Below, piece by piece: positions 10,192-59,630 of a stretch of DNA of 64,000 bases (positions within the stretch are counted from its first letter, which is position 1; each line of letters opens with the position of its first letter). The DNA is from Crossiella equi. Its GTDB lineage: Bacteria; Actinomycetota; Actinomycetes; Mycobacteriales; Pseudonocardiaceae. Under the pieces are notes generated by a model, which was not told where the DNA came from, did not search any database, and was given only the letters and a program-made list of their open reading frames with translations. Position numbers and translations under genes: made by a program. The stretch covers positions 3,643,786 through 3,707,785 of the forward strand of contig NZ_JAGIOO010000001.1 in the NCBI RefSeq assembly GCF_017876755.1, in the 5' to 3' direction.

Positions 10192-11499
10192 TCACCGCGG
10201 GGTCAGACCGGTGTGCTGGGCGAGCCACGGCATCGCCTCGGCCAGCGCGGGCCGCCACACCACCCAGTTGTGCGGCCCGGCCAGCTCCAGCCACTGCGCG
10301 GTCATGCCCGACTTCTGGCAGGCCTTGTAGACCTCCTGCTGCTGCGGGCGGAACTCGTTGTCCTTGTTGCCGGAGATGATCAGCGCCGAGGTCTTCGGGA
10401 ACTTCGTGGTGGCCATGATGTCCAGCGGGTTCACCCGCTTGAACGCCGCCTCGTCCCCGCCGAAGGCCGCGGCCACGGTGTCCTTGCGGGTGCCCAGCGA
10501 GGGCTCGCGCTGCCCGGCGATGTCGACGAAGCTCCGGTAGACCTCGGGCGCGCGCACGGCCAGCTGGAGCGAGCAGGTGCCGCCCTGGGACAGCCCGCCG
10601 ATCGCCCAGGCCTGCGGGTCGGTGTTGACCTGCAGCGTCTGCCGGATCCAGGCGGGCACGTCCTTGGCCAGGTAGGTCTCGGCCGCGCCGAGCTTGGAGT
10701 CCACGCACAGCGGGTTGGCCAGCTCGCTGCCCAGGTGGTCGGGCAGCACCACGACCGGCGCCAGTCCCTTGTTCTCGGCGGCGTAGCGGTCCATGGTCGC
10801 GGCCAGCTGCCCGGGGCCGAGCCAGTCGGTTGGGGAGCCCGGCTGACCGGCCAGCAGCACCAGCACCGGCAGTCTCGGGCGCGGGTTGGCCTGGTAGGCC
10901 GGGGGCAGGTAGAGCCGTCCGGTGCGGGTGGTGAACCCGGCCGAGGACGGGATGGTCACCTCGGAGACCGTGCCGGTGTCCGGCAGGTCCGGCGGCGGCT
11001 GCCACACCTCGCTGAGTGCCTTGCCCGGCGGCACCACCACGGTGGAGGCGGCGGGTCTGGCCGCCTCGCTCAGGTCCGCGGTGCGGCCCTGGCCGCTGCC
11101 CAGCAGCGCCGAGACCGTGGGGAACTGCCCGAAGAACCGGTTCACGTCGGCCAGCCCGCACACCACGAGCACCACGACGCACAGCAGCACCCCGAGCCGG
11201 GCGGGCCAGTGCAGCGGCTTGGCGCGGAACACGGCCAGCACCAGCACCCCGGCCAGCACGGCGATCCACAGCGAGACGTTGCTGGGCAGCCGGTCGGCGA
11301 AAGGCCGCCACACCTGGTTGACCACCAGGTCGACGGCCAGGCCGAGCACCACCACACAGAGCAGCACCAGCGGCACCACCCGGCGCCACCAGCTGCGGCG
11401 GCCGTCGTAGAGCAGCACCGCGAGGGCCGCGCCCCCGGCGAAGGTGAGCAGTGCCGGGACCGGCCCGTCGATCAGGGACCAGTCAAGGGGGGCCGCCAT
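10192..11499 (-). CDS. membrane-anchored alpha/beta hydrolase (esterase D/antigen 85-like)
   Basis: The 435-aa protein begins with four transmembrane segments in the first 120 residues and continues as an esterase domain facing outward. The nucleophile elbow is GGLSQGG (Ser near residue 293) and the catalytic His is probably in the late GPHNWVVW. An oxyanion/substrate region LLAGQPGSPTDW precedes it. Domain and gene order (upstream of the DUF2156 gene on the same strand, 30-bp gap) point to a shared cell-envelope role, for example acting on lipid or cell-wall esters. The ATG start is unambiguous. Close relatives are annotated only as alpha/beta hydrolase-fold proteins. Confidence 0.8.
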   Translation of the reverse strand: MAAPLDWSLIDGPVPALLTFAGGAALAVLLYDGRRSWWRRVVPLVLLCVVVLGLAVDLVVNQVWRPFADRLPSNVSLWIAVLAGVLVLAVFRAKPLHWPARLGVLLCVVVLVVCGLADVNRFFGQFPTVSALLGSGQGRTADLSEAARPAASTVVVPPGKALSEVWQPPPDLPDTGTVSEVTIPSSAGFTTRTGRLYLPPAYQANPRPRLPVLVLLAGQPGSPTDWLGPGQLAATMDRYAAENKGLAPVVVLPDHLGSELANPLCVDSKLGAAETYLAKDVPAWIRQTLQVNTDPQAWAIGGLSQGGTCSLQLAVRAPEVYRSFVDIAGQREPSLGTRKDTVAAAFGGDEAAFKRVNPLDIMATTKFPKTSALIISGNKDNEFRPQQQEVYKACQKSGMTAQWLELAGPHNWVVWRPALAEAMPWLAQHTGLTPR

Positions 11500-33941: not shown

Positions 33942-36206
<2,265 letters not shown>

Positions 36207-36219
36207 TCTCTGCTGGAAA

Positions 36220-36251
36220 GCCCGGGCCCGCCCTTCGTGGCGGGCCCGGGC
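36220..36251. terminator. hairpin terminator after katG
   Basis: A perfect 13-bp stem (GCCCGGGCCCGCC, 36220-36232, with complement 36239-36251) and CTTCGT loop, without a T tract. Confidence 0.85.
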
Positions 36252-36636
36252 CATTCCCGGCCAATCCTTTGCGCAATCCTTGCCAAGCCACTTTTGAATA
36301 ATTCACAAGTGCACGAGCGGCGCGTCCCGGCCCACTGCGGACACATGCTTGACGAATCAAGCTTTTCGGCGCTCCGTGACTACATCCGGAGCAGTGTTCG
36401 ACCCCGCGCCACACTTCAGAGTGAAGGTCGGGCGCCTTTACTACTGTCGGCTGAACTCCTTGTCGCCGTTCCGGAGTTCGGTCCCGCTTTCTTCTGGGCT
36501 ACCACTCAACGATCCGGCCGCACCGTTGAACGCGGTTAGTTGAGCCTCACTGGCACCCCCGCCTGATTGAGGGGCATACTCGCCACAACGACATGGGCGT
36601 GACTCGCAGTCACCAAAGCTCACTGTCCGCAAAAAA
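36252..36636. other. 385-bp gap, lower GC, upstream of small membrane protein gene
   Basis: No convincing gene. A 64-codon frame (36345-36539) has weak codon bias and no ribosome binding site. The stretch is AT-richer than average (for example TTTTGAATAATTCACAAG near 36292) and ends in the leader of the small membrane protein gene. Part of it (36605-36636) is weakly similar to the region before the second leader hairpin near 39220-39247. Confidence 0.4.
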
Positions 36637-36666
36637 CACGGTCCCCTGCTGGCACAGAGGACCGTG
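36637..36666 (+). promoter_or_regulatory. leader hairpin, copy 1
   Basis: CACGGTCCCCTG (36637-36648) pairs with CAGAGGACCGTG (36655-36666), 11 of 12 pairs, around a 6-nt loop, about 30 nt before the start codon of the small membrane protein gene. The inner nine pairs correspond position by position to the hairpin at 39248-39271, with one compensatory change (T-A for C-G). Likely a 5'-UTR element acting on translation or transcription of the downstream gene. Confidence 0.6.
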
Positions 36667-36696
36667 AATGGCATTTGTTCACACACGAAGGAAACA

Positions 36697-36996
36697 ATGC
36701 TCATGGGCATTATAGGTGCGCCCTGCCCAGGAAGTCAGACTCCGGTCGGGTCAGTCCGGCACCACTCCGCACCGCGGGCCACCACCTGGCGGGGTGTGCT
36801 CGGCCGCGTGGTCGCCGGACGGGGCGCCACGCTCCGCACCGGCGCGCTGGTGGTCGTGCTCATGTGCGGCCTGGCGCTGGCCGGGTACGCCGCGGGCGGG
36901 CTCACCGGGCTGCTGGGCATGGCCGGGCTGCTCGCCGTCATCTCGCTCGTCGGCCGCGGTTCCTGGGGCAAGGACCCGGGCGGGGCCATGCCGTAA
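36697..36996 (+). CDS. small membrane protein, copy 1 of a duplicated pair
   Basis: A 99-aa protein: a short polar N-terminus (residues 1-40), then LRTGALVVVLMCGLALAGYA and GGLTGLLGMAGLLAVISLVG, two hydrophobic segments with a Gly-rich turn, ending in a short basic/Gly tail. The second half aligns without gaps to the protein at 39308 (ATLRxxxLVxVxxxGxALxxxxxGLTGLL), so they are paralogues. ATG 36697 has GAAGGA just upstream. Unknown family; two-helix holin-like, toxin-like or channel-like roles are possible. It is convergent with the three-HTH gene and upstream of a DUF397/Scr1 pair. Confidence 0.6.
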   Translation: MLMGIIGAPCPGSQTPVGSVRHHSAPRATTWRGVLGRVVAGRGATLRTGALVVVLMCGLALAGYAAGGLTGLLGMAGLLAVISLVGRGSWGKDPGGAMP

Positions 36997-37013
36997 CAGA
37001 CGACCCCGGGGGG

Positions 37014-37541
37014 TCAGCGGACCCGGTCCCGCACCACCGGAGTGCGGGACCGGAGTCCGACCCCGGCCTGCACCAGCAGTGTGCGCACCGCGGTGTAGGA
37101 GGAGCCGAACCGGTCCGCGAGCTCGCGGATGCTGGCACCCGCGCGGTAACCGGCCACCACGGCGTCGGTATCACCGGGCGGCAGCGCCCGGGGCGGTTTC
37201 GGCACCCCGGCAGCGGACAGGTAGCGGCGCACCACGCGCCGGTCGATGCCGGTGGTCCAGCTGAGCTGGGCCACGGTCTCGCCGCGTTGGTGCCGGGCCA
37301 CCAGCTCAGCGGCCAGCTCGGCGTTGCCGGTGCGGATGCAGGACTCATCGTCGGTGCGCACCCCTGCCTCGATGAGCAGGCGGCGCACCAGGGCCGGGCC
37401 GCGCCCCACCCGGGCGGCCAGTTCGGGGATCGACGTGGTTCCGGCGGCGTACCGGCGGGCCAGCTCGGCGGCGAGCCGCTTGCGCTCGGTGCCCCGGAGC
37501 GGGGCGCACTTGTCAGGTCCGGACTGCGGTTGGCTGATCAC
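37014..37541 (-). CDS. protein of three tandem helix-turn-helix repeats
   Basis: The 175-aa protein consists of three copies of a unit of about 45 residues, each ending in a recognition helix and the phrase (L/A)xxAGV: ELAARVGRGPALVRRLLIEA, QLSWTTGIDRRVVRRYLSAA and ELADRFGSSYTAVRTLLVQA. They resemble resolvase/sigma-4-type helix-turn-helix units. There is no catalytic domain, so it probably binds an extended repeated DNA site or structures DNA. ATG 37541. It lies between the small membrane protein (convergent) and the DUF397/Scr1 pair (divergent). No named family is recognised. Confidence 0.7.
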   Translation of the reverse strand: MISQPQSGPDKCAPLRGTERKRLAAELARRYAAGTTSIPELAARVGRGPALVRRLLIEAGVRTDDESCIRTGNAELAAELVARHQRGETVAQLSWTTGIDRRVVRRYLSAAGVPKPPRALPPGDTDAVVAGYRAGASIRELADRFGSSYTAVRTLLVQAGVGLRSRTPVVRDRVR

Positions 37542-37706
37542 GGGCTACCTCGTGGTGCGTGCGTCTGAGCCTTCCGCTCGTGACGAACCCGGCCGCGGAT
37601 CATGACGGCGCACCAGCCCATCGGTGACACTGTCGGGTGAAGAATCGCGGCGTACCGCCACCAGAGAACTACACACGGTTGCACCTGAAATACGCAGCGT
37701 ACATGC

Positions 37707-37721
37707 TGACACCGAGTGTCA
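37707..37721. promoter_or_regulatory. candidate operator TGACAC-N3-GTGTCA of the DUF397/Scr1 pair
   Basis: A perfect 6-3-6 inverted repeat located 30 bp upstream of the DUF397 start. The second DUF397/Scr1 locus in this window has a perfect inverted repeat of the same 6-3-6 geometry (GTGGCA-ctt-TGCCAC at 59675-59689), suggesting both are autoregulatory sites of the Scr1-type protein. Confidence 0.5.
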
Positions 37722-37750
37722 CGACAGGGGTCTTGGCTCAGGGGGTTCGC

Positions 37751-37981
37751 ATGGACGACTACGACCCGCTCTCGATGTCCGCCGCGTTCGACGCGGGACG
37801 CTGGGAACGCCCGGCCCGGTGCGGCCCGAACGGCGGGAACTGCGTCGAGGTCAACCTCGACAACCCGAGCTACGTCGGGTTACGGGACAGCAAGCTGGCC
37901 CACAGCCCGGTACTCGTCTTCGACAACCAGGAGTGGGGCTCGTTCCTGGCCGCGGCGCGATCGGGCCAATACGATCGCTGA
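37751..37981 (+). CDS. DUF397-domain protein (partner of Scr1-type regulator)
   Basis: The 76-aa protein contains the DUF397 core: GRWERPARCGPNGGNCVEV, a variable strand (SKLAHSPVLVFD) and NQEWGSFLAAARSG. DUF397 proteins are small partners of XRE/DUF5753 regulators in actinobacteria (bldB, whiJ and scr families) and behave like antitoxin- or effector-type modulators. ATG 37751 has AGGGGG at 5-nt spacing. It is followed 47 bp later by the XRE gene in the same direction. The N-terminal 15 residues (MDDYDPLSMSAAFDA) are an extension not typical of the family. Confidence 0.85.
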   Translation: MDDYDPLSMSAAFDAGRWERPARCGPNGGNCVEVNLDNPSYVGLRDSKLAHSPVLVFDNQEWGSFLAAARSGQYDR

Positions 37982-38028
37982 GCGGCGCGGCGGGGAGGAG
38001 CCCCGGTCCCACGCAGATAGTGAGACCA

Positions 38029-38886
38029 GTGAAACTCTCACCCACCACGAGCCGTCGCCACCTCGGCCACATGATCACCGACCTGCGCGAGCGCCAGGGC
38101 ATGACCCAGGCCACCGTGGCCCGCCGGACGGGCCTGACCCAGGTCAAGATCACCCGGATCGAGAAGCAGGTCAGCCCTGTGGACCTGGCCGAGATCCGCC
38201 GCGTCGTCTCGGTCCTCGGCCTGCCCGAGCCCGAGGCGAAACTGGTGCTGTCCCTGGCCTCCGCCTGCCAGAAGACGGAGAAGAAGGAACCGTGGGCGGG
38301 CGTCAGGGCCGCGGTGGCCCCGTGGTTCCGGCAGGTCTTCGAGACCGAGGGCGACGCGACCCGCATCCGCAACTGGAACAGCGAAACCCTCCCGGGCCCC
38401 CTCCAGTCCGACGCCTTCGTCCGCTCCCTGCACAGCCTGGACGGCGCGACCGACACCACCTCGGCCCCGGTGAACATGCGCAAGCGCCGCAAGGACCTCT
38501 TCACGAGCCCCCACCTCACGGCCTACGAATGCATCCTGGGCGAGGGCTTCTTCACCCGCCTCCCCCACATGCACAACCGCGAGGTGGCCCACGACCAGCT
38601 CATCCACCTGGCCCACCTGCTCGACACCCACCCGGCCCTCTCGCTGCGCCTGCTCCCCTTCGACGCCCCCCTCCGCCACCTGGACGCCAACTTCCTGGTG
38701 ATGAACTTCCACTACTCCCCGATTGACTACGTCTACGTCGAACACCTGACCGGCGGCACGTACCTCGACCCGGGCAAGGACATGGACGTCTACCTCGACG
38801 AGTGGGACAAGCTCACCAAGGCCGCCCTGGACGAACCCAGCACGCTGGAGTGGCTGACAGCGAAGGCCGAATCGCTGGCACCCTGA
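38029..38886 (+). CDS. Scr1/WhiJ-type XRE regulator with DUF5753 domain, copy 1
   Basis: The 285-aa protein has an N-terminal helix-turn-helix (residues 10-65: GMTQATVARRTGLTQVKITR, IEKQ) and a C-terminal DUF5753 domain with the typical LPGPLQSDAFVRSL signature (about residue 125), YECILGEGFFTRLP, LSLRLLPFDAP and the YVEHLTGG segment. GTG 38029 is supported because the paralogue at 39738 aligns from its own GTG and both are preceded by CAGATAGYGAGA. It likely autoregulates the DUF397 operon and binds the DUF397 protein. The ligand is unknown. Confidence 0.85.
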   Translation: MKLSPTTSRRHLGHMITDLRERQGMTQATVARRTGLTQVKITRIEKQVSPVDLAEIRRVVSVLGLPEPEAKLVLSLASACQKTEKKEPWAGVRAAVAPWFRQVFETEGDATRIRNWNSETLPGPLQSDAFVRSLHSLDGATDTTSAPVNMRKRRKDLFTSPHLTAYECILGEGFFTRLPHMHNREVAHDQLIHLAHLLDTHPALSLRLLPFDAPLRHLDANFLVMNFHYSPIDYVYVEHLTGGTYLDPGKDMDVYLDEWDKLTKAALDEPSTLEWLTAKAESLAP

Positions 38887-38897
38887 CCAGTGCGGCT

Positions 38898-39107
38898 ATG
38901 CCCAGAGTTCGGGTGAAATTTTCAACCAGCCCGCTCGACGAAGTTCGTGACCTTAGGCCAACCGGAACATGCTCAGACAATCTCCTGCACGCCCAGTGCC
39001 GAAGTCGCCGGGAGCCACACAGCTCCATCACTCACCCGAGTGAAGATCAATTCTCGCCAGCCGAAATAATTAGACAGATAGTCACGATCCTCGACCAAAT
39101 CGACTGA
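38898..39107 (+). CDS. possible small protein of atypical codon use (doubtful)
   Basis: A 69-codon frame from ATG 38898 that lies in the 420-bp gap between the first Scr1-type gene and the second leader. Only about half of its codons end in G or C, unlike the neighbours, which argues either for recent acquisition or against coding. The C-terminus PAEIIRQIVTILDQID is a plausible amphipathic helix. There is no clear ribosome binding site and no recognised family. The remainder of the gap (39108-39247) shows no gene. Confidence 0.25.
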   Translation: MPRVRVKFSTSPLDEVRDLRPTGTCSDNLLHAQCRSRREPHSSITHPSEDQFSPAEIIRQIVTILDQID

Positions 39108-39247
39108 CGCCACAAATACCGCTGGACGTACACCTCAAGCCGCTGGGCGAGTGAGCCGCCGACAGGGTGGAAAATTGCGGCGATTGGGCGGCAATATGAC
39201 ACCAGACGACGGGGAGTCACCCGCCGTCAAAGTCCATTGCACAACGC

Positions 39248-39271
39248 GGCCCCCTGCGCCAACAGGGGGCC
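39248..39271 (+). promoter_or_regulatory. leader hairpin, copy 2
   Basis: GGCCCCCTG (39248-39256) pairs perfectly with CAGGGGGCC (39263-39271) around a 6-nt loop, 36 nt before the start of the second small membrane protein gene. Loop length, the GGNCCCCTG left arm and the distance to an AAGGAA ribosome binding site all match copy 1 at 36637-36666. Confidence 0.6.
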
Positions 39272-39307
39272 CGCGCCGCTGTAGTTGAACTACAAAGGAA
39301 TAGCCAG

Positions 39308-39667
39308 ATGAAGACTGTAGGCGCTGCCGACCCGAATAATCCAGGCCAGGAGCGACGTTCAGCCACATCTCACCCAGTCGGGAAGAGAAAGGGCAGGTCC
39401 GCGCGCCGTCGCCGCGGCGGCGCGGCGATGCACCGGCGGCAGGCGGCCCACACCGGCTGGCGCTGCACGTTCGGCGACATCGTCACCGGCTGGGCCACCA
39501 CGCTGCGTGCCAGCTTCCTGGTGGCGGTGTTCACCAGTGGGGTCGCGCTGATCTGCCACTACGCGGACGGCCTCACCGGCCTGCTCAGCGGTGCCGGCCT
39601 GCTCGGCACCGTCTCCCTGGCGAACCGCCGCCCGTGGGGCAGCGCCCTGAGCCCGGCGCGCTCGTAG
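39308..39667 (+). CDS. small membrane protein, copy 2 of a duplicated pair
   Basis: The 119-aa protein has a strongly basic N-terminus (GKRKGRSARRRRGG, about residues 25-38) followed by ATTLRASFLVAVFTSGVALI and GLTGLLSGAGLLGTVSLANR, two hydrophobic segments aligned gap-free with the protein at 36697. The N-terminal halves differ, so selection appears to act on the membrane part. ATG 39308 follows AAAGGAA by 7-8 nt. A terminator hairpin follows its stop, and 35 bp later the second Scr1-type regulator begins. Function unknown. Confidence 0.6.
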   Translation: MKTVGAADPNNPGQERRSATSHPVGKRKGRSARRRRGGAAMHRRQAAHTGWRCTFGDIVTGWATTLRASFLVAVFTSGVALICHYADGLTGLLSGAGLLGTVSLANRRPWGSALSPARS

Positions 39668-39673
39668 CCACCA

Positions 39674-39703
39674 GCCCCGCCGTGCGGTCGCGCACGGCGG
39701 GGC
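39674..39703 (+). terminator. hairpin terminator after second small membrane protein gene
   Basis: A perfect 12-bp stem (GCCCCGCCGTGC, 39674-39685, with complement 39692-39703) and 6-nt loop, 10 bp after the stop. It separates the membrane protein transcript from the Scr1-type gene that starts at 39738. Confidence 0.8.
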
Positions 39704-39737
39704 TTCCCGGCAGTCCCCATGTCAGATAGCGAGATCC

Positions 39738-40583
39738 GTGGACTATTCGCCGACAACCTGCCGCCGACGGCTGAGCTGGGAGATCAAGGAGCTCATGGCG
39801 AGCCGGAAGCTGAACAAGACGCGGTTCGCCGCCAGGGCCGACCTGACTCCGGTGAAACTGAGCCGGTTGCTCAAGGGCGAGCAGAAGGCGTGCGCGCAGG
39901 ACATCCAAAAACTGATCATCAACTTGGACCTGCCGAAAAAAGATGCCTGTCTGCTCACCCAGCTCTCCATCGGCACCAGGAAGAACGACGGCTGGCGCGG
40001 CGACCGCGCGACGGTGCCGAAGTGGTTCCGCATCGTGCACGAGACCGAGCTGGACGCCACCGAGATCCGGAACTGGACCCCGCACAGCCTGCCCGGACCG
40101 CTCCAGTCGGAACTGCTGGTGCTGTCCCTGTACCAGCTGGACGGAGCCGTGGACATGACCCCACAGGTCCGAATGCGGGAGGCGAGGAAGAAGCTGTTCG
40201 GCAGCCGCCACCTGAAGCGGTACGACTGCGTCGTGGGTGAGAGCTTCTTCAACCACCTACCCCTCCAGCACAGCCGAGAGGTGGCTTACGACCAGATCTG
40301 CCACCTCCGCGACGCGATCCCCCGCGAGCGCGCATTGTCCTTCCGGGTGCTGCCCATCAGCGCGGAAGTCCGTTTCCTCTACCCCGAGTACCTGGTCCTG
40401 CACTTCGAGCACGATCCGCTCGACTTCGTCTTCATCGAGCACCTGACCAGAGGGATCACCATTCCCCCCGGCAAGGAAATGGACCAGTACCTGACGCTGT
40501 GGCGGGAGATCAGCGACGCGGCGCTCAGCCCGCGCCAGACCGCCGAGTTCCTCACCGCGCGGGCCGAACTGCTCCGCCCCTGA
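39738..40583 (+). CDS. Scr1/WhiJ-type XRE regulator with DUF5753 domain, copy 2
   Basis: A 281-aa paralogue of the protein at 38029, similar along its whole length (SPTT-RR start, AxIRNW/TEIRNW, SLPGPLQSE, YDCVVGESFFNHLP, LSFRVLPIS, FIEHLTRGITIPPGKEMD). The helix-turn-helix is more divergent (NKTRFAARADLTPVKLSRLL). GTG 39738 is preceded by CAGATAGCGAGATCC, nearly the same as before copy 1. No DUF397 gene accompanies this copy; instead the upstream gene is the small membrane protein, and downstream is a decayed methyltransferase. Confidence 0.85.
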   Translation: MDYSPTTCRRRLSWEIKELMASRKLNKTRFAARADLTPVKLSRLLKGEQKACAQDIQKLIINLDLPKKDACLLTQLSIGTRKNDGWRGDRATVPKWFRIVHETELDATEIRNWTPHSLPGPLQSELLVLSLYQLDGAVDMTPQVRMREARKKLFGSRHLKRYDCVVGESFFNHLPLQHSREVAYDQICHLRDAIPRERALSFRVLPISAEVRFLYPEYLVLHFEHDPLDFVFIEHLTRGITIPPGKEMDQYLTLWREISDAALSPRQTAEFLTARAELLRP

Positions 40584-40615
40584 CCGCACCGCGCCCCCGA
40601 CGATCGGAGGCGACC

Positions 40616-41148
40616 GTGCAGGACCCTTTCCCGCGCCCGGAGTCAGCCTGACCAAGCCGAGCAACGCACGGGTGTCCGACTACCTGCTCGGCGGCACGGC
40701 CCACTGGGCGCGGGACCAGGAGCTCGACGACCGGCTGCTCGGGCTCGTTCCCACGCTCCGGGCCATCTCCCTGGCCGCCCGGGAGTTCAGCCACCGCGTG
40801 GTCCGGCAGCTGGCCGCGCTGGGGGCCGAGCAGTTCCTGGACGTCGGCTGCGGGCTGCCCACCCTCGGGCCGGTGCACGAGGTCGCCGAGGCGGCGCGGC
40901 CCGGGCTGGTCCGGGCCGAGGGCGTGCTCGACCTCGACCAGCCGGTGGTGATCCTGCTCGTCGGTGTGCCGGACCTGCACCCCGGCGACCTCCTCGCCCG
41001 GTACCGGGAACTGCTGGCACCGGGCTCCTTCCTCGCCCTGTCCCCTGTGGCGGCCGGAGCACCGGGAGCCGGGGTTCGGGGTGGCCCGGGAGTCCGCGGT
41101 GCGGGCCGGGGTGGGGCGCAAACCCGGCTGAGTAGCATGCTCGGTTAG
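40616..41148 (+). pseudogene. degenerate SAM-dependent methyltransferase (DUF574/Methyltransf_19)
   Basis: A GTG at 40616 with GGAGG five bases upstream opens a frame that stops after 11 codons. A different frame (from about 40650) then encodes TKPSNARVSDYLLGGTAHWA and EQFLDVGCGLPTLGPVHEVA, the N-terminal part of the DUF574 methyltransferase family. About 50 residues that should carry the SAM-binding acidic motif (normally VVYVDNDPVV) are missing before LDLDQPVVILLVGV, and the C-terminus is Gly/Ala/Arg-rich nonsense ending at 41148. So there is one frameshift and one internal deletion; the gene is probably dead. Confidence 0.7.
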
Positions 41149-58775: not shown

Positions 58776-59630
58776 TTACGAGAACGACTCCGAGATGACC
58801 CGCTCGACGATCTCCTCCAGCCTCTCCGCGGGCTCGGCCAACGCCTCGAGCTCGTAGAACCACTCCAGGTACTTGCTGGTCTCGTCCGGGCTGTTCTCCA
58901 GGATGCGGGTCTCGCTGCCGCTGGCCTCGATGTACACGGCGTTGTCCTGCTCGCCCTCGAAGTCGTAGACGACGTACGAGCCGTACATGCCGACGTGGGC
59001 CCCCTTGTCGAAACCGGCGATCTGGATGCTCACCTGGGGCAGCTTGTTCATTTCGACCAGCTTCTCCAGCTGCTTCCGCATGACCTCCTTCCCGCCGACC
59101 GCACGCCGGATTACCGCTTCGTCCAACACGAAGAAGATCCTCGTCCCACCGGCGAAGAACCGCGCCTGGCGTTCCTTGCGGATCTCGATCGTGCTGGCGA
59201 TGACATTGAGGTCGTTTTCGTACAGCTCCACGATCGCGCGCATGTAACCGTCGTCCTGGAGCAGACCGGGCACCAGCTGCGACTGGAACTGGCGGACGAG
59301 CGAGGCCGACGACTCCAAGGCGATCAGCTTGAGGAAGCTCGGCTTGGCGCTGCCCCGCAGCTTGTCCCACCAGACCTGTTGCCTGCTCGCCTTGGCGACC
59401 TCCACCAGCTCCTCGACGACCTCGCGCTCGGTGCCGTAGAACGCCAGCAGCGCCCGCAAGTCCGTCGTCGAGATGCCGACCGCGCCGGTCTCGATGCGGA
59501 TGACCTTGCTCGGGGACCAGTCCAGCGCCTCGGCCACTGCCTTCTGGGTCACGCCCGCCGCCTCCCGTGCTCGGCGCAGCTCGCCGCGGAGCCGTCGCTG
59601 GTAGGCGACCGGGTTACCGCCGGATGTCAT
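58776..59630 (-). CDS. Scr1/WhiJ-type XRE regulator with DUF5753 domain
   Basis: The 284-aa protein has an XRE helix-turn-helix (REAAGVTQKAVAEALDWSPS, KVIRIETGAVGIS) and a DUF5753 domain (QFQSQLVPGLLQDDGYMRAI, then RQARFFAGGTRIFFVLDEAV, RKQLEKLVEMNKLPQVSIQI and YVVYDFEGEQDNAVYIE). ATG 59630 fits the GGAGA nine bases upstream; GTG 59636 is an alternative. A perfect GTGGCA/TGCCAC palindrome lies 45 bp upstream, the likely autoregulatory site. Paired with the DUF397 gene downstream and divergent from the CDP-glycerol transferase-like gene. Confidence 0.88.
   Translation of the reverse strand: MTSGGNPVAYQRRLRGELRRAREAAGVTQKAVAEALDWSPSKVIRIETGAVGISTTDLRALLAFYGTEREVVEELVEVAKASRQQVWWDKLRGSAKPSFLKLIALESSASLVRQFQSQLVPGLLQDDGYMRAIVELYENDLNVIASTIEIRKERQARFFAGGTRIFFVLDEAVIRRAVGGKEVMRKQLEKLVEMNKLPQVSIQIAGFDKGAHVGMYGSYVVYDFEGEQDNAVYIEASGSETRILENSPDETSKYLEWFYELEALAEPAERLEEIVERVISESFS

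Follow-up and report, generated by a model that had tools for sequence, protein, structure and literature searches.

Type I toxin-antitoxin systems with an antisense RNA opposite a small open reading frame (ORF) are best illustrated for our purposes by two cases. In AapA3/IsoA3 of Helicobacter, the antisense RNA is 80 nt long and its -10 box lies inside the toxin ORF (PMC6733600, in excerpt). MsoT1/MsoA1 of Microcystis is a proposed type I system for which toxicity and promoter activity have been tested, and before this cyanobacterial case of 2025 type I systems were known only from Proteobacteria, Firmicutes and Tenericutes (PMC12390103, in excerpt). Among the open-access titles and abstract openings listed in our literature search, none dealt with a type I toxin-antitoxin system in actinobacteria, subscription papers and preprints lying outside its scope. 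Here we analyse a 64,000-nt stretch of the actinobacterium Crossiella equi (contig NZ_JAGIOO010000001.1 of GCF_017876755.1, positions 3,643,786-3,707,785 of the forward strand; hereafter the window), in which two tandem units each encode a small membrane protein, M1 or M2. We propose, with a probability of about 0.6, that each unit may be a type I toxin-antitoxin-like locus in which an antisense RNA would control a membrane toxin, M.

A preliminary description of the window, made from its letters alone, had pointed to a duplicated module of hairpin, membrane protein and DUF5753 regulator, and this organization is borne out by sequence comparison and Pfam. M1 and M2 share 44% identity across 75 residues (E 7.5e-11), and the two XRE-DUF5753 regulators behind them, R1 and R2, are 45% identical to each other, in keeping with the paralogy that had been claimed. 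The DUF397 protein assigned to unit 1 is genuine, the divergent protein credited with three helix-turn-helix repeats does contain three HTH_58 stretches, and unit 2 was rightly said to lack DUF397, there being no DUF397 frame between M2 and R2 in the ORF list. Similar hairpins, which we call P2, stand ahead of both membrane protein genes, as described. The M1 frame, previously begun at 36664, has its best start at ATG 36703, picked by its spacing from the Shine-Dalgarno sequence and by an ANNNTA motif at +6 (ATG 36697 is also possible), and it stops at 36996.

According to our proposal, the plus strand would encode the two-helix protein M and the minus strand a short antisense RNA whose -10 box (TANNNT) would lie within the first codons of M. 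This RNA would start near the M start codon, cross the ribosome-binding site and 5' leader of M, and stop at P2. By pairing with the M mRNA it would block translation, and a drop in its level would allow M to be made and to act on the membrane. Two such loci would stand here in tandem, both with an XRE-DUF5753 regulator attached; the fullest module further includes DUF397, the three-HTH_58 protein and a Methyltransf_19 gene. Its computed support consists of the conservation shown by M, the hairpin and the antisense -10 element, together with the strand preference of the helix; expression of the antisense RNA, silencing of M by it and toxicity of M are inferences.

Much of this evidence comes from 46 hairpin loci, mostly of Pseudonocardiaceae and some of Streptomyces. 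They derive from 276 regular-expression matches, in which the same site is often counted in several loci; for 127 of these, a frame with a transmembrane (TM) segment and a length of 55 aa or more starts within 110 nt, and deduplication at 80% identity leaves 46. Eleven loci had been excluded by hand beforehand: nine non-actinobacterial by title, one viral contig (L237) and one from Flaviflexus (L213), which we take to be an actinobacterium. Nine of the 46 were found by DNA pattern. Unit 1 of the window falls outside the 46-locus rule and was added to alignment A6.

The start codons of these loci were chosen without using ANNNTA, the complement of TANNNT. TANNNT is the usual -10 element of actinobacterial housekeeping promoters. 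ANNNTA nevertheless lies 0-15 nt from the start codon in 44 of the 46 loci, at offsets of 3 (13 loci), 6 (24), 7 (five) or 12 (two); within the 140 nt examined around the start, just four occurrences fall outside offsets 0-12, and only two of 164 control ORFs, whose starts are mechanical longest-ORF starts, carry it. One locus counted as a miss, L152, would have the motif if a later in-frame GTG, noted by eye, were the true start. In the 39 in-frame cases the motif yields a GTA, ATA, CTA or TTA codon, A-ending in 39 of 39, against 25 of 1208 valine, leucine and isoleucine codons later in the same genes. The motif is not a protein constraint, because it stays while the frame differs in the five offset-7 loci (L191, L200, L229, L231 and L236). 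Further along, CCAG stands exactly 21 nt beyond ANNNTA in 26 of 44 loci, giving CTGG-N21-TANNNT on the antisense strand; read as codons, the site holds the rare CCA 27 times, compared with 26 of 292 proline codons in the background.

The helix of P2 points to the same strand. Structured RNA tolerates G-U pairs, and where P2 departs from perfect pairing it mostly shows C.A on the sense strand and, at the same positions, U.G on the antisense strand. In the nine pairs nearest the loop, wobbles number 27 on the antisense and 3 on the sense strand; for the loop-closing pair the figures are 35 and 4. The DNA pattern that supplied nine of the loci favours a C.A imperfection at one pair, and the selection rule is non-neutral at two further pairs; a recount at the three pairs neutral to the search rule gave 26 to 1, and the 37 loci not found by DNA pattern gave 22 to 1 at the neutral pairs and 26 to 4 at the loop-closing pair. 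The inner 11 pairs of the first alignment, A3, hold 18 antisense to 6 sense wobbles. A filter for six-base loops kept 43 of the 46 loci, and the antisense alignment A6 comprises 39 of these together with unit 1, L070, L144, L051 and L053 having been left out by hand for a stem one or two bases short. In A6, 96.0% of cells pair, a level reached by none of 500 shuffles; both sides have changed in 32 cells (10.2 in shuffles), and 25 of 25 one-side changes are U-G. Covariation of the hairpin over 36 sequences is strong, with 66 cells changed on both sides versus 23.4 in shuffles.

In unit 1 both ends of the putative RNA are recognizable. Between 36500 and 36900 a promoter scan returned one promoter, on the minus strand (shuffles mean 0.0, sd 0.1), and a terminator scan returned one terminator, also on the minus strand and made of the P2 stem followed by TTTTTT (shuffles mean 0.2). 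The predicted transcript is complementary to the M1 ribosome-binding site and has its edge one base before the M1 start codon. If transcription is taken to begin 7 nt from the -10 element and the tail to have 6 nt, the predicted RNAs of all loci fall in the narrow range of 68-95 nt, with a median of 76. Tails with at least four T in nine positions occur in 20 of 46 loci on the antisense strand and in 10 of 46 on the sense strand.

With one mismatch allowed, the pattern GYCCYCTGYNNNNMCAGRGGRC has two sites only in the 9.44-Mb genome, the two P2 hairpins, and the core CCCTG-N6-CAGGG recurs ahead of M across genera. A strict-pattern scan of contigs from 84,980 species returned 47 stretches, 38 of them actinobacterial by title, including Amycolatopsis, Actinophytocola, Lentzea, Saccharothrix, Actinokineospora and Streptomyces. 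In 24 of the 38, an ORF that starts within 150 nt is 60 aa or longer and is predicted to contain a TM segment; in six more (L193, L206, L212, L218, L223 and L234) one end of a small ORF is hydrophobic by eye, and the remaining ones are cut, masked, repeats or without such an ORF. Viral contigs gave three pattern matches. In Streptomyces the P2-type hairpin also precedes small TM proteins without a match to the M profile, which form at least two groups by eye. TM segments were predicted by hydropathy both in M homologues and in the other proteins behind the hairpin, ten of which had no Pfam match over cut-off. Against Rfam, region 36000-41000 of the window gave seven matches, all below gathering score, among them BjrC68 over the unit 1 antisense RNA (20.9 of 39 bits), and 18 loci gave nothing at gathering score except one tRNA. 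At two loci, the hairpin and ANNNTA accompany a very short ORF that is followed by a DUF6119 gene: 11 codons in L164 (P2 at 1501, reverse strand; DUF6119 at 234 bits in Pfam) and 10-11 codons in L232 (at 6053; DUF6119 by eye).

A model of the antisense hairpin matched four of 394 class genomes, of which G000 and G048 hold training sequences; in G478 the match comes with ANNNTA and with an ORF of 61 aa, one end of which looks hydrophobic by eye, and the match in G417 was rejected as, on our own reading, a plain terminator beside tRNA-like sequence. One contig of G478 (C4) carries identical-looking copies of hairpin and small ORF 37 kb apart, at 10958 (L274) and 48123 (L275). The first hairpin model, of the sense strand, is not specific, many of its Streptomyces matches being GGCCCCCGGC-type terminators; its class-wide matches (36 of 296), of which only fetched loci were inspected, are probably of the same kind. 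Among 29 Streptomyces sense-model matches that we inspected, ANNNTA lies 20-115 nt away, on either side, in five of six with a CTG-N6-CAG core, one of the six having a seven-base loop, versus three of 23 without it.

Homologues of M are patchily distributed in the family. A 16-row profile found matches at E<=0.001 in 88 of 390 family genomes; a single-sequence search at the permissive limit of E<=0.01 had given 56 of 297, many of them probably chance. A scan of genome contigs with M2 alone found no relatives, whereas the search of family genomes did. Plasmids gave no match to M2, and phages, searched with one Streptomyces protein from behind the hairpin and not with M2 itself, gave none to that protein. 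M1 and M2 match no family over cut-off in Pfam or NCBIfam, and PADLOC had no match at E<=0.1. The structure model of M2 has helices at residues 52-87 and 91-106, at low confidence (pLDDT 66, pTM 0.32). Paired hairpin or M units, tandem or divergent, are also present at L116, L130, L169, L173, L174 and L051.

The neighbourhoods of M were read at 83 matches in 79 loci, taken around the stronger homology matches and not around all. The hairpin precedes part of the M homologues: a strict hairpin rule is satisfied at 43 of the 83, namely 27 of the 38 strongest matches and 12 of 25 and 4 of 20 weaker ones. Failures of the rule comprise a few misses in which a hairpin can be seen (L045, L046 and L047), some diverged hairpins, and many weaker M matches with none visible. 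ANNNTA follows at a distance of 20-85 nt in all 43 matches that satisfy the strict rule. A DUF5753 gene lies within 3 kb of 21 of the 83, against about 0.8 expected from the roughly 1% chance proximity given by the 14 DUF5753 genes of the C. equi genome itself, an approximate contrast in that other genomes may hold more such genes and the loci are related. The module would have counted as a local coincidence had M lacked homologues or had these lain away from DUF5753 genes; neither is the case. The association of Scr1-type regulators with M and a conserved hairpin, put forward in the preliminary description, is real and recurs in several genera; 11 of the 43 strict-hairpin matches also have DUF5753 within 3 kb, and because the hairpin accompanies M regardless of a nearby DUF5753 gene, DUF5753 is a frequent and not a defining partner.

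Several observations weigh against an antisense-controlled toxin. Classical type I toxins are shorter than M, which spans 84-176 aa in alignment A1. In the scan, unit 2 has neither a consensus antisense promoter nor a terminator, despite its -10 element and hairpin, and antisense tails have fewer than four T in nine positions at 26 of 46 loci. The strict hairpin is absent at 40 of the 83 M matches. The wobble bias is weak when all 14 pairs of A3 are counted, outer ones included (23 to 13, p 0.13), the loci are related, so that alignment cells are not independent, and two of five A6 covariation measures are unremarkable (32 and 290 of 500 shuffles as high). Finally, P2 is conserved in sequence beyond the needs of a terminator, and the CCAG-bearing bases upstream of the antisense -10 do not form a normal -35.

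All of the antisense RNA evidence would apply equally if the RNA were real and M an ordinary small membrane protein, for example of the envelope or of signalling, that is kept low and is not a toxin. Toxicity of M is not among the computed results, and the lack of a Pfam, NCBIfam or PADLOC family for M1 and M2 speaks for such a role. We consider it unlikely, while granting it real weight, since the patchy occurrence of M (88 of 390 family genomes and just two of five in the genus), its paired copies, the use of one RNA element by membrane proteins of different kinds and the company of XRE-DUF397 pairs all fit a selfish or conflict module better. Of the two roles first suggested for M, a toxin-like membrane protein is the better reading, ahead of an envelope stress sensor. 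Control could also be exerted in cis by a riboregulator in the sense leader, in which P1, a further hairpin ahead of P2, P2 itself and P3, a pairing over the ribosome-binding site, would govern M translation and the -10-like motif would be incidental. P3 is stronger between its own partners than between swapped ones (means -11.46 vs -10.12 kcal/mol, equalled in 0 of 5000 permutations), NTG codons cluster 4-8 nt after P2, and P1 precedes P2 in many loci despite its variable sequence, judged by eye. Such a leader, however, leaves the ANNNTA element unexplained and has C.A mismatches where the antisense strand has wobbles, and we hold it to be improbable. The RNA leader of the preliminary description is to be revised, the helix wobble pattern and the in-ORF -10 element favouring a separate antisense RNA over a mainly sense leader; the sense and antisense readings may both hold, because the AapA/IsoA scheme includes a structured toxin mRNA.

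The same hairpin could in principle be a DNA element. P2 is palindromic, DUF5753 genes lie near 21 of 83 M matches, and a symmetric operator for the XRE-DUF5753 regulator would also predict coupled changes in both halves. It would not predict strand-biased imperfections, though, and no DUF5753 gene comes within 3 kb of 32 of the 43 M matches that carry the strict hairpin, which makes an operator very improbable. We give hardly any credence to a local coincidence or an ordinary terminator hairpin: the first hairpin model does respond to GC-rich terminators of other families, and one of the two non-training genomes matched by the antisense model has the plain terminator beside tRNA-like sequence, but neither accounts for the tie between the CTG-N6-CAG core and ANNNTA in Streptomyces (5/6 vs 3/23), for the position of ANNNTA (44/46 loci vs 2/164 controls) or for the codon bias (39/39 vs 25/1208). 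An antisense RNA directed against a toxin-like M remains the reading that we prefer.

Other conserved elements accompany P2. Direct repeats resembling CCGTTCGGC and spaced by exactly 21 bp were found in 19 of 46 loci, against no spacing above two in 200 shuffles; they lie mostly 90-150 nt upstream of P2 and across different membrane protein families, and in the window a weak single copy lies at 39140-39149. Taken with P1 and P3, these repeats point to an mRNA with structure and to one transcription factor shared by the loci. A conserved leader peptide, suggested by the NTG cluster, was rejected, as frames and peptides differ by eye among close Amycolatopsis loci.

The partner genes (Table 1) were read with profiles built in this analysis. 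The fullest module, found in L012, L046 and L148, runs M, optionally the divergent HTH_58 protein, DUF397, XRE-DUF5753 and Methyltransf_19, and in a divergent form (L109, L114, L119 and others) the regulator genes lie on the opposite strand. In the window, the Methyltransf_19 gene lies downstream of R2 and has apparently been shortened through internal loss. In unit 1, XRE-DUF5753 adjoins DUF397, as in an XRE-DUF397 pair of the Scr1/Scr2 type, and in unit 2 DUF397 is missing. Control of the M promoter is one possible role for R1, R2, DUF397 and the methyltransferase. A third DUF5753 gene of the window lies at about 58821-59330 on the minus strand (contig positions 3702606-3703115).

Table 1. 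Genes and predicted RNA elements of the two units, in window coordinates.
Feature	Position	Strand	Basis or remark
P1, variable hairpin, M1 leader	36599..36613	+	fold; sequence
Predicted antisense RNA 1, ~74 nt	36629..36702	-	from promoter and terminator; fold
P2 of unit 1, putative terminator for antisense RNA 1, with TTTTTTGCGG as its tail	36637..36666	-	terminator scan, fold, conservation, covariation
M1, small membrane protein of 97 aa with two helices, putatively toxin-like	36703..36996	+	homologue of M2
Predicted antisense promoter 1, CTGACT-18-TATAAT	36709..36738	-	scan, 10 of 12 consensus bases
Divergent three-HTH_58 protein	37014..37541	-	Pfam 88.9 bits; same position in G002 and G244 modules
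DUF397 protein	37751..37981	+	Pfam 58.3 bits; best start ATG 37751, chosen by eye
R1, XRE-DUF5753 regulator	38029..38886	+	Pfam 100.9 bits
P1, variable hairpin, M2 leader	39205..39228	+	fold
Predicted antisense RNA 2, ~68 nt	39240..39307	-	predicted; fold
P2 of unit 2, where antisense RNA 2 would end, with a tail poor in U	39245..39275	-	fold; no terminator by scan
M2, small two-helix membrane protein, 119 aa	39308..39667	+	homology searches; low-confidence structure model
Predicted -10 box for antisense promoter 2, reading TACAGT on minus strand	39314..39319	-	motif position common to 44/46 loci
R2, XRE-DUF5753 regulator	39738..40583	+	Pfam 77.6 bits
Shortened Methyltransf_19 gene, 158 aa	40672..41148	+	Pfam; 280-348 aa in five related modules

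Beyond the window, we see roughly even odds that these loci represent a previously unseen actinobacterial type I class. In it, one conserved antisense cassette, with a -10 element in the first toxin codons and a terminator hairpin core CCTGU-N4-GCAGG, would be common to several small membrane protein families, and possibly to DUF6119 genes, in Pseudonocardiaceae and Streptomyces; it would often be coupled to XRE-DUF397 regulators, with a transcription factor common to the loci driving it from the 21-bp repeats upstream. If the antisense proposal is right, it would extend the type I class to a phylum of antibiotic producers, provide an RNA-level signature for finding more such loci, and give the long-debated XRE-DUF397 pairs a concrete partner.

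Within the actinobacteria, a type IIb RelBE locus of Mycobacterium tuberculosis has reportedly been found with an antisense RNA (PMC9325379). It would share with our units the combination of toxin-antitoxin and antisense RNA, but is by title a type II protein pair and not a membrane toxin with an RNA antitoxin. The three-HTH_58 protein resembles the CRISPR repeat-binding protein Cbp1 below threshold (NCBIfam HTH_Cbp1, E 2.9e-12, 46.7 bits against a cut-off of 140), and is therefore a non-member. Unit 1 has its XRE-DUF5753 gene beside DUF397, as do XRE-DUF397 pairs of the Scr1/Scr2 and WhiJ type, although the order is DUF397 then XRE in unit 1 and XRE then DUF397 in the Streptomyces pairs (PMC10364602, PMC2701414, both in excerpt); in the main text of PMC10364602, the words 'transmembrane' and 'methyltransferase' are absent, HTH_58 not having been searched for. 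As proposed for our units, MsoT1/MsoA1 combines a putative toxin of two TM helices with an opposite-strand RNA that has a predicted promoter and terminator, but it is cyanobacterial and experimentally tested, whereas the units described here are known from sequence (PMC12390103, in excerpt). The nearest published layout that we found is AapA/IsoA, which would resemble our units in having an antisense RNA of about 80 nt opposite a small ORF, with its -10 element within that ORF, and further in a structured toxin mRNA and several copies per genome, as proposed here (PMC6733600, in excerpt). AapA3 has 30 aa and M 84-176 aa with two predicted helices, and unlike in AapA/IsoA the predicted RNA here spans the leader and ribosome-binding site and ends at a hairpin of conserved sequence; the likeness drawn here is one of layout only.

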